A stretch of 64,000 bases of DNA from Hyphobacterium sp. CCMP332 (GTDB lineage Bacteria > Bacteroidota > Bacteroidia > Cytophagales > CCMP332), in contig CP058647.1 in the NCBI GenBank assembly GCA_014323545.1, positions 1,528,001 to 1,592,000 of the forward strand, given 5' to 3'. Numbering within the stretch: the first letter of the stretch is position 1; every line of letters begins with the position of its first letter. The notes beneath the pieces are model-generated. The model was not told the origin of the DNA, did no database searches, and saw only the letters and a list, made by a program, of their open reading frames with translations. Position numbers and translations under genes: made by a program. Below, in pieces: positions 1-3,731 of the stretch.

Positions 1-345
1 ACAAGCACCCGCCATGATTTATAAGTGATGTGGATATGTGGATAAATATTACCTAGCTTATACACATTGTATTATAAGAAGTTTAAATTTAATTAACATT
101 TTTATTTTACTGATATACAATGCTTTAAGTTAGTTATCCACATTTATGTATGTGGAAAAGTTGTTAAAAGTTTTTTTGCTTTATTATCTTTGACTTATGT
201 CGGGCTTTTACAATATTTGTAGGCACCTGATTAAAAAATCAAGCACATTTTATTAAGGAATCATTAAGCAGGGGACTTAAAGCAGGAAACCGGCTGAAGG
301 AGACCTTTTTTTTAAAAATTTTTTAACTAGAACCCTAACGCCAAA
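1..345. promoter_or_regulatory. Gene-free region with DnaA-box cluster upstream of nrdB
   Basis: No coding sequence is supported in these 345 bases. Five 9-mers match or nearly match the DnaA box TTATNCACA: 29-37 (minus strand, one mismatch), 37-45 (minus, exact TTATCCACA), 58-66 (plus, exact TTATACACA), 134-142 (plus, exact TTATCCACA) and 151-159 (minus, TTTTCCACA, one mismatch). Between the second and third groups (about 67-120) lies a very A/T-rich stretch that could melt easily. A Bacteroidota-type promoter follows at 189-219. The region could be a chromosomal origin or a DnaA-controlled nrd promoter, as known for nrdAB of Escherichia coli; the sequence alone does not decide. Confidence 0.6.
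189..219 (+). promoter_or_regulatory. Predicted nrdBA promoter (Bacteroidota consensus)
   Basis: TTTG at 189-192 and AATATTTG at 212-219 are separated by 19 bases. The Bacteroidota primary sigma consensus is TTTG/TTG-N19-TAnnTTTG, so the -33 box is exact and the -7 box differs at one position. Transcription would begin near 226, giving a leader of about 120 bases before the nrdB ATG. The nearest DnaA-box-like site ends 30 bases upstream of the -33 box. Confidence 0.45.
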
Positions 346-1323
346 ATGGAAAAGCACGAAGAACTCCTACTAAAAGAAGACAAAAAACGATTTGTATTAT
401 TTCCCATCAAGTACCACGACATTTGGGAAATGTATAAAAAAGAGGAGGCGAGTTTCTGGACGGCTGAAGAAATTGATTTAAACCAGGATCTTGTTGACTG
501 GAACAACCTCAACGATGGCGAAAGACACTTCCTTTCTCATGTTCTTGCTTTCTTCGCCGCCAGCGATGGCATTGTCAATGAAAATCTTGCGGAGCACTTT
601 CTCCACGAAGTTCAGTTTCCAGAAGCTAAATGCTTTTATGGTTTTCAGATCATGATGGAAAATATTCACTCTGAGACCTATTCTTTATTAATTGATACCT
701 ATATAAAGGACCCCAAAGAAAAGGACCACCTTTTAAACGCAATCGAAACTGTGCCGGCCGTTAAGAAAAAAGCAGACTGGGCTTTGCGATGGATCGATAA
801 TGGTGATTTTAAAGAAAGACTAATCGCATTTGCCGCCGTTGAGGGAATATTCTTTTCCGGAAGCTTTTGCTCGATTTTCTGGATGAAAAAAAGAGGCTTA
901 ATGCCAGGTTTGAGTTTTTCTAATGAACTCATCTCAAGAGATGAAGGCCTGCACTGCGATTTTGCTTGTCTGCTTTACAACAACTACATCGAAAATAAAA
1001 TGCCCGAAGAGAAATTGAGGCAAATCATTCTCGACGCAGTGGAAATTGAAAAAGAATTTATTACAGATTCACTGCCGGTGGATTTGATAGGTATGAACTC
1101 CAAATTGATGAAACAATACATAGAGTTTGTTGCCGATAGGTTGCTATTGGAACTGAATTGCGAAAAAGAATTTAATTCAAAAAATCCATTTGATTTTATG
1201 GAAATGATTTCGCTTCAGGGTAAAACCAATTTCTTCGAGAAAAGGGTTGCAGAATATCAGAAGGCCGGGGTCATGGACAATGACAAGAAAGGCTTCAACT
1301 TCACCATGGATGAAGATTTTTAA
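346..1323 (+). CDS. nrdB: Class Ia ribonucleotide reductase, beta (radical) subunit
   Basis: This is the small subunit that holds the di-iron centre and tyrosyl radical used with NrdA to make deoxynucleotides. Expected ligand and radical residues are visible: Asp74 in ASDG, then Glu105, His108 and Tyr112 in the MENIHSETY block. That block and the CFYGFQ segment look more like the eukaryotic R2 subunit than the E. coli NrdB. The length, 325 residues, is usual for compact bacterial R2 proteins. The C-terminal tail ends in acidic and aromatic residues (FNFTMDEDF), the kind of tail that docks into the alpha subunit. nrdA follows after 32 bases, so the two form an operon. The order beta then alpha is the reverse of E. 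coli. Confidence 0.97.
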
Positions 1324-1355: not shown

Positions 1356-3731
1356 ATGTTAGTAATCAAAAGAGACGGGAGACGAGAGTCTGTCCGATTC
1401 GACAAAATCACCACCCGAATTGAAAAACTTTGCAATGGTCTTGATATGGATTATATCAAACCCATTGAAATCGCCAAAAAAGTAATCGACGGATTATACG
1501 ATGGCGTAACGACCGAACAATTGGACCGATTGGCTGCAGAAACAGCCGCTTCAATGACCGTTAGGCATCCCGATTATGCCAAACTTGCTGCGAGAATTGA
1601 AGTGTCTAATTTGCATAAAAGAACTTCTTCTTCCTTTTCCAATACCATGAAGAGAATGTATTCTTATGTTGACCCGAAAACCGGGGACAATGCACCTCTT
1701 CTTTCAAAAGAAACTTATAAAGTAATCAAAGACAATGCTGCAAAACTCGACGCAGCCATTGATTACGAGAGAGATTTTACTTACGATTTTTTCGGCTTTA
1801 AAACACTGGAAAGATCCTACCTTATGAAACTCGACGGAGCCATTGTGGAAAGACCACAACACATGCTCATGAGAGTTTCTATTGGTATCCACGGCGATGA
1901 TCTGGATGCTGCTATCGAAACCTATAATTTGTTATCGGAGAAGTGGTTTACACACGCTACTCCGACTTTGTTTAATGCTGGTACACCTAAACCACAATTG
2001 TCGAGCTGTTTTCTTCTAACCATGAAGGATGACAGCATTGATGGTATTTATGACACATTAAAGCAATGTGCAAAAATATCACAATCGGCCGGTGGTATAG
2101 GTCTGAGCATTCACCATGTAAGAGGAAAAGGAAGTTATATCAGAGGAACAAACGGAACCTCAAACGGCATTGTGCCGATGCTCAGAAATTTTGATATGAC
2201 AGCGCGTTATGTGGATCAGGGCGGAGGAAAGAGAAAAGGCAGTTTTGCCATTTATCTCGAGCCATGGCATTCTGATGTTTTCGAATTTCTCGAGCTAAAA
2301 AAGAATCACGGGAAAGAAGAAATGAGAGCAAGAGATCTCTTCTACGCACTTTGGGTTCCTGATTTGTTTATGAAGCGTGTTCAGGACGATGATGTATGGT
2401 CTTTGTTTGATCCTAATGAGGCTCCAGGACTTGCCGATACCTATGGGGAAGAATTTGAGAAGCTTTTTGAAAAATACGAACGCGAAGGAAAATACAGAAA
2501 GCAAATAAGAGCGCAGGAATTGTGGTTTGCCATCCTCGAATCGCAAACGGAAACCGGTACGCCTTATATGCTTTTTAAAGATGCTGCGAATAACAAGTCA
2601 AATCAAAAGAACTTGGGTACCATTCGCTCTTCCAACCTATGTACAGAAATTATTGAATATACCGCCCCGGATGAGGTGGCTGTTTGTAATTTGGCTTCCA
2701 TTGCCCTTCCGAAATACATCAAAGAAGATGGCAATTTTGATCATGAAAAACTTTATGAGGTCGTTTATACCGTGACAAAAAATCTCAATAAAGTCATCGA
2801 TGTCAATTATTATCCTGTGGAAGAGGCGCGCAATTCCAATATGCGTCACCGTCCAATAGGATTGGGTGTTCAGGGTTTAGCTGATACTTTCATTTTGATG
2901 AATTATCCATTTGAAAGTGAAGAAGCGAAAAAACTAAATAGGGAAATATTTGAAACCATTTATTTCGCTGCCATGACTTCTTCCAAAGATTTGGCTATCA
3001 AGGAAGGCCCATATGAAACCTTTAAAGGCTCTCCTGTTTCAAAAGGAATTTTCCAATTTGATATGTGGGGAGTTACACCTGATTCCGGAAGATGGAATTG
3101 GGAAAGTCTGAAAAGAGAAGTGAAAAAACACGGTGTTAGAAATTCCCTTCTTTTAGCTCCTATGCCAACGGCCAGTACAGCACAAATATTGGGCAATTGT
3201 GAGGCCTTTGAGCCCTATACCAGCAACCTGTATTTAAGAAGAGTACTTTCGGGTGAATTTGTTGTGGTCAACAAACATTTGATGAGAGACCTTATAAAAG
3301 CGGGTTTGTGGAATGAAGAAATGAAAAATGAACTCATTTCAGAGAATGGTTCTGTTCAAAAGATCTCCAGTATTCCTCAGGAAATAAAAGATCTGTACAA
3401 AACCGTTTGGGAAATCAGTCAGAAAACCATCATCGACATGGCCGCAGATAGAGGTGCTTATATCTGCCAAAGCCAGAGTTTGAACATCCATATGCAGAAC
3501 CCGAATTTCGGAAAGCTGACCTCAATGCATTTCTATGCATGGCAGAAAGGTTTGAAAACAGGTATGTATTATCTGAGAACCAAAGCCGCAACGGATGCCA
3601 TCAAATTTACGGTAGACAAAAAATCTCTTGCCAAGCCCATGGCTACAAAAGAGGAAGTGATCGCGCAAAATCAGGCGGACATGTCTTGTTCACTAGACAA
3701 CCCTGATGAATGCGAAGCTTGTGGTAGTTGA
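1356..3731 (+). CDS. nrdA: Class Ia ribonucleotide reductase, alpha (catalytic) subunit
   Basis: This 791-residue subunit binds and reduces ribonucleoside diphosphates. An ATP-cone allosteric domain occupies about residues 1-90 (VIKRDGRRE start). The active-site cysteines can be placed: Cys218 (QLSSCF), Cys429 (SNLCTE) and Cys444 (AVCNLAS), corresponding to the redox pair and the thiyl cysteine. The two radical-transfer tyrosines fit the SNLYLRR region, and a C-terminal CxxC (Cys786 and Cys789) would be re-reduced by thioredoxin or glutaredoxin. The intact ATP cone suggests dATP feedback control. The gene follows nrdB directly and is followed by two hairpins. Confidence 0.97.

Follow-up and report, generated by a model that had tools for sequence, protein, structure and literature searches.

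A conserved DnaA-box cluster upstream of nrdBA in a Cytophagales chromosome: A probable DnaA-binding control region of class Ia ribonucleotide reductase

Upstream of the class Ia ribonucleotide reductase operon nrdBA in a Cytophagales chromosome lies a cluster of DnaA boxes that is conserved nonrandomly at nrdB and is located away from the skew-defined chromosome origin. Judged from sequence comparison, the region is quite probably a DnaA-binding control region, or operator, of nrdBA, and the cluster most likely keeps the supply of DNA precursors in step with the replication cycle.

The window—the whole 64-kb stretch of DNA analyzed here—comprises bases 1,528,001–1,592,000 of a single 3,325,829-base contig. 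The cluster occupies a 398-bp intergenic region between the divergent gene pairs rplU-rpmA (minus strand, left of the window; Pfam L21 and L27) and nrdB-nrdA (plus strand), with the rplU start codon 53 bases left of the window edge (Table 1). Most named relatives of the NrdB protein belong to Cytophagales, and the closest of them is 83% identical. A 16S rRNA search with the bacterial model gave no match in the window genome; the same search missed some control genomes, so this may be a limit of the search.

Table 1. Boxes, predicted promoter elements, and genes at the left end of the window (window coordinates)
Feature	Position	Strand	Basis or remark
DnaA-box-like ATATCCACA, one mismatch	29–37	−	base 37 common to neighboring box
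DnaA box TTATCCACA, exact consensus, distal group	37–45	−	sequence match
DnaA box TTATACACA, exact, distal group	58–66	+	sequence match
A/T-rich stretch separating both box groups	67–133		sequence
DnaA box TTATCCACA, exact, left half of proximal inverted pair	134–142	+	family's best-conserved box
DnaA box TTTTCCACA, one mismatch, right half of proximal inverted pair	151–159	−	sequence match
Predicted −33 element TTG	161–163	+	read from sequence against Bacteroidota consensus
Predicted −7 element TATCTTTG of nrdBA promoter	185–192	+	21 bp after TTG
Leader block AATATTTGTA..C.CCTGA, downstream of predicted nrdB promoter	208–232	+	conserved in window genome's family
nrdB, class Ia ribonucleotide reductase small chain	346–1323	+	PF00268, E 1e-117
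nrdA, ribonucleotide reductase large chain with ATP cone	1356–3731	+	PF02867, PF00317, PF03477

A first-pass annotation of this DNA had described three exact and two one-mismatch boxes at 29–159 upstream of nrdBA, all of which were recovered in place, and had judged a chance origin of three exact 9-mers unlikely. Dinucleotide shuffles of positions 1–219 bear out that judgment: They contain 0.029 exact boxes on average, and none of 5,000 reached three. The three exact TTATNCACA boxes of the cluster are also the only ones in the 64-kb window. Across the whole genome (3.33 Mb), exact TTATNCACA sites number 138 versus 105 for the reversed pattern; because this count exceeds its control only slightly, single boxes carry little meaning. 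The same small excess over chance is what speaks for the cluster being a chance product of A/T-rich DNA, an explanation whose probability we put close to nil: It is contradicted by the shuffles and by the conservation of boxes across families, for which the reversed control gives 0 matches. Among the 127 sites listed, which are complete up to ~2.97 Mb and incomplete over the last 0.35 Mb, the nrdB cluster is the only triple within 110 bp, and in a weighted box scan of 1.61 Mb (48% of the genome) it ranks first, with 3.85 against 2.70 for the runner-up.

Other box groups were observed on the same chromosome. The second-strongest cluster, at 1,929,782–1,929,888 (L166, 9782–9888), consists of TTTTCCACA, TTATCCACA, and an inverted TTATCCACA and is flanked by a gene for a ClC channel and a thioredoxin-like gene; genomes G001, G002, and G035 likewise have boxes downstream of the ClC gene. 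Two further boxes, 79 bp apart, lie between parA-parB and yidC at 2,942,279–2,942,366 (L263, 7279–7366), possibly linking DnaA to the segregation genes.

Bacteroidota promoters follow the consensus TTG / TAnnTTTG, and TATCTTTG is the only match to TAnnTTTG on the plus strand of positions 1–345. The proximal boxes form an inverted pair, TTATCCACA-N8-TGTGGAAAA, that makes up a 26-bp site (134–159) and ends one base short of the predicted −33 TTG; at least two consensus boxes lie just upstream of the predicted class Ia nrd promoter. Four Hymenobacter loci also have the element TATCTTTG, 103–121 bases before nrdB. For an RNA element in the leader, Rfam gave no match at the gathering score; rliA matched at chance level under a permissive threshold and was rejected.

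Boxes at nrdB are conserved in relatives beyond chance. Forty distinct rplU/nrdB intergenic regions of Cytophagales hold 37 TT[AT]TCCACA boxes, where shuffles predict 0.57 and the reversed control yields 0. The 63 distinct regions upstream of nrdB genes that lack rplU as a neighbor have 14, compared with 1.0 expected. Comparison of nrdB upstream regions, proposed as a check in the first-pass annotation, thus finds the boxes enriched, though absent in part of the order: The TT[AT]TCCACA box is missing from 17 of the 40 rplU/nrdB regions, and most of the nonadjacent nrdB genes, among the 63 distinct upstream regions, are box-free, so control of this kind would be patchy within Cytophagales. Within the window genome's own family, both halves of the proximal inverted pair are conserved, and one same-family relative (L045) carries TTATGCACA in place of the 58–66 box, at an equal distance (76 bp) from the proximal box. 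The distal group (29–66) has no clear conservation outside this family.

Because the intergenic region is common to both operons, the boxes might instead serve the divergent ribosomal genes rplU-rpmA. The distal group is closer to rplU, and the predicted rplU −7 element—CAAAGATA on the plus strand, the reverse complement of TATCTTTG, 372 bases before nrdB—lies ~47 bp from it. Genomes in which the two genes have separated point the other way. Where nrdB stands apart from rplU, exact box pairs are retained in G012, in G006 (family f5; a tandem TTATGCACA-2 bp-TTATCCACA), and in G025/G040 (a tandem arrangement, 2 bp between boxes), whereas rplU standing apart in G006, G012, G025, and G040 has no boxes; in three genomes a separate rplU does carry boxes, but only isolated single ones. 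Paired boxes therefore stay with nrdB and not with rplU, which favors nrdB as their owner in a separated-gene test that rests on two families within the order (f5 and f11), and we regard service to rplU-rpmA as very unlikely.

The inverted pair recurs as an architecture. When 291 Cytophagales genomes were searched for TTATNCACA-N6..9-TGTGNAWAA, 64 had the pair, versus ~10 matches for the reversed pattern. Its spacer is mostly 7 bp, 6 in some genomes, and 8 in the window genome and G001, and the spacer sequence is free. Among the 30 loci listed, the pair lies between rplU and nrdB in 14: the window genome, G001, and 12 genomes of a Hymenobacter-like family (f12). In three genomes of family f19 (L306, L307, and L308 at 1501–1525), TTATCCACA-N7-TGTGGATAA lies ~125 bp upstream of dnaA. 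A pair common to nrdB and dnaA argues for a DnaA operator; other pair loci lie elsewhere, including in or near genes without a known DnaA link. We tentatively suggest, at somewhat less than even odds, that in Cytophagales the fixed-spacing inverted pair TTATCCACA-N7-TGTGGATAA is a DnaA operator whose location (nrdBA, dnaA, or another site) varies with the family and whose form differs from the tandem double box of E. coli; in that case, the window would hold the nrdBA version with a second box group added. Our literature search of open-licence papers found no Cytophagales nrd control with an inverted DnaA-box pair.

Two families also show boxes at sites of other kinds. In family f10, the pair occurs once per genome at non-nrd places (L331–L352, ~1501–1525), with neighbors, named by eye, that include an oxidoreductase gene together with bioF- or ybeY-like genes in several genomes and a uvrB-like gene in one; these are possible titration or conversion sites. 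In several f12 genomes (L317, L318, L319, L322, and L323 at 1501–1525), the 25-bp box palindrome is embedded in a long reading frame that resembles NAD(P)H-hydrate epimerase (named by eye).

Titration of DnaA is the main rival to nrd control, and the two could hold together. In its strict form, the cluster would mainly titrate or convert DnaA in the manner of datA or DARS and leave nrdBA unaffected. Several boxes do stand together fairly near the origin, titration by origin-proximal boxes has been shown in E. coli (PMC12371093), and in f10 and some of the f12 genomes the same pair occurs at loci other than nrdB and dnaA. Yet the boxes go with nrdB when the neighborhood changes, and the pair adjoins the predicted promoter; we consider the strict form unlikely, and a control region of nrdBA remains the preferred reading.

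The first-pass annotation had also offered the cluster as the chromosome origin, to be recognized by a genome-wide GC-skew minimum nearby. Gene orientation dominates raw GC skew and makes it too noisy, so skew was taken at fourfold-degenerate third positions with a correction for gene strand. This strand-corrected skew has its cumulative minimum near 1.74 Mb instead. A step model over 1,292 genes places the switch at 1.74 Mb (range 1.72–1.77 Mb) and the terminus near 0.02 Mb, and an origin at 1.52–1.56 Mb is worse by 21–25 scaled chi-square units. In block bootstraps the switch fell at 1.64–1.76 Mb in 41 of 60 and at 2.04 Mb in the other 19, the latter because of one odd stretch at 2.03–2.05 Mb. 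Replication skew in that stretch (L170; genome 2,030,001–2,050,000) is strongly reversed (−0.23), perhaps reflecting a recent insertion or inversion. The nrdB cluster, at 1.528 Mb, is ~218 kb from the switch.

At the switch itself, an A+T-rich intergenic region of 365 bp (1,746,187–1,746,551; L159, 6187–6551) carries DnaA boxes at 1,746,245 and 1,746,311 and stands two genes away from mnmG/gidA. Its A+T fraction is ~0.78, and it provides the only stepped 300-bp window above 0.78 in 1.66–1.80 Mb. This region is likely the chromosome's oriC. Two other placements were rejected: an origin linked to dnaA, which was identified at 0.98 Mb, far from the skew switch, and an origin at the ClC/TlpA box cluster (1.93 Mb), which is ~30 scaled chi-square units worse than the best fit.

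Relatives offer a comparable picture downstream of mnmG, with seven box-like sites within 300 bp in G006 and several in G045, G030, G020, and G029; the corresponding place in G032, G047, and G037 has few or no boxes. In G006 and G045, mnmG (at 3.67 and 2.01 Mb, respectively) is close to the coarse skew minimum, and nrdB is 410 and 200 kb away, although the coarse 20-sample skew of these two genomes cannot by itself separate nrdB from mnmG. dnaA is far from the skew minimum or mnmG in G006, G045, and the window genome. In a published Bacteroidota genome, dnaA lies off the skew turn and oriC is predicted next to mnmG (PMC11278836, where the figure legend swaps the labels of the two points).

Set against an origin of the mnmG/gidA type, the nrdB cluster has the DnaA boxes and the A/T-rich DNA: Its boxes are strong, an A/T-rich block accompanies them, it lies within ~6.5% of genome length of the skew minimum, and nrdB is loosely origin-proximal in G045 and G006 too. 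It is, however, away from both the skew switch (1.72–1.77 Mb) and mnmG, and the region at 1,746,187–1,746,551 fits the type better, with relatives carrying clusters in the same place. With the switch elsewhere and a rival box region on the mnmG side, the nrdB cluster is most unlikely to be oriC, and that part of the first-pass annotation finds no support.

The alternative put forward there, that DnaA couples dNTP supply to initiation, is the one that comparison favors: The boxes are enriched and conserved, they are kept with nrdB, and the pair also stands at dnaA promoters, all of which is consistent with a DnaA-responsive nrdBA. That DnaA binds here, where the promoter sits, in which direction control acts, and whether rplU-rpmA respond are matters of inference. 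In the proposed mechanism, DnaA would bind the proximal inverted pair (134–142 / 151–159) and the distal group cooperatively. At low DnaA occupancy, RNA polymerase would be helped at the nrdBA promoter; at high ATP-DnaA, the protein would spread from the boxes over the −33 region and close the promoter. The level of ribonucleotide reductase would then track the DnaA cycle. This switch from activation to repression as ATP-DnaA occupancy rises is proposed by analogy with E. coli nrdAB (PMC8203912).

DnaA control of ribonucleotide reductase has been demonstrated for E. coli nrdAB, whereas for B. subtilis and C. crescentus it is a proposal only (PMC8203912). The E. coli nrdA double DnaA box is bound in ChIP-seq, where bound sites are tandem and 2–3 bp apart (PMC11317965). 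Like E. coli nrdAB (double box TTATCCACA-aag-TTATGCACT), the window has high-affinity boxes upstream of class Ia genes. The tandem pair with 2–3-bp spacing, which characterizes the E. coli sites and not DnaA-regulated nrd promoters in general, is absent from the window and present, with 2 bp, in G006 and G025/G040. In the window genome's family and f12, by contrast, the pair is inverted with a 7–8-bp spacer, and the window further differs from E. coli in its second box group ~70 bp upstream, its gene order nrdB-nrdA, and its divergent rplU-rpmA. A second point of comparison is autoregulation at the dnaA promoter. The f19 genomes carry the same inverted pair there, with a 7-bp spacer, whereas dnaA in the window genome has no exact box closer than ~2 kb upstream, and the pair stands at nrdB instead.

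DnaA control of nrd genes is thus of a kind already known from E. coli; no account of the Cytophagales member with its inverted pair turned up in the open-licence papers searched. For this chromosome, the likely origin shifts to the mnmG side, and one 26-bp site would give a sharp test of the coupling. More broadly, if nrdBA in so distant a phylum carries conserved boxes in a fixed arrangement, a link between the replication initiator and dNTP supply would seem to be widespread or to have arisen more than once.
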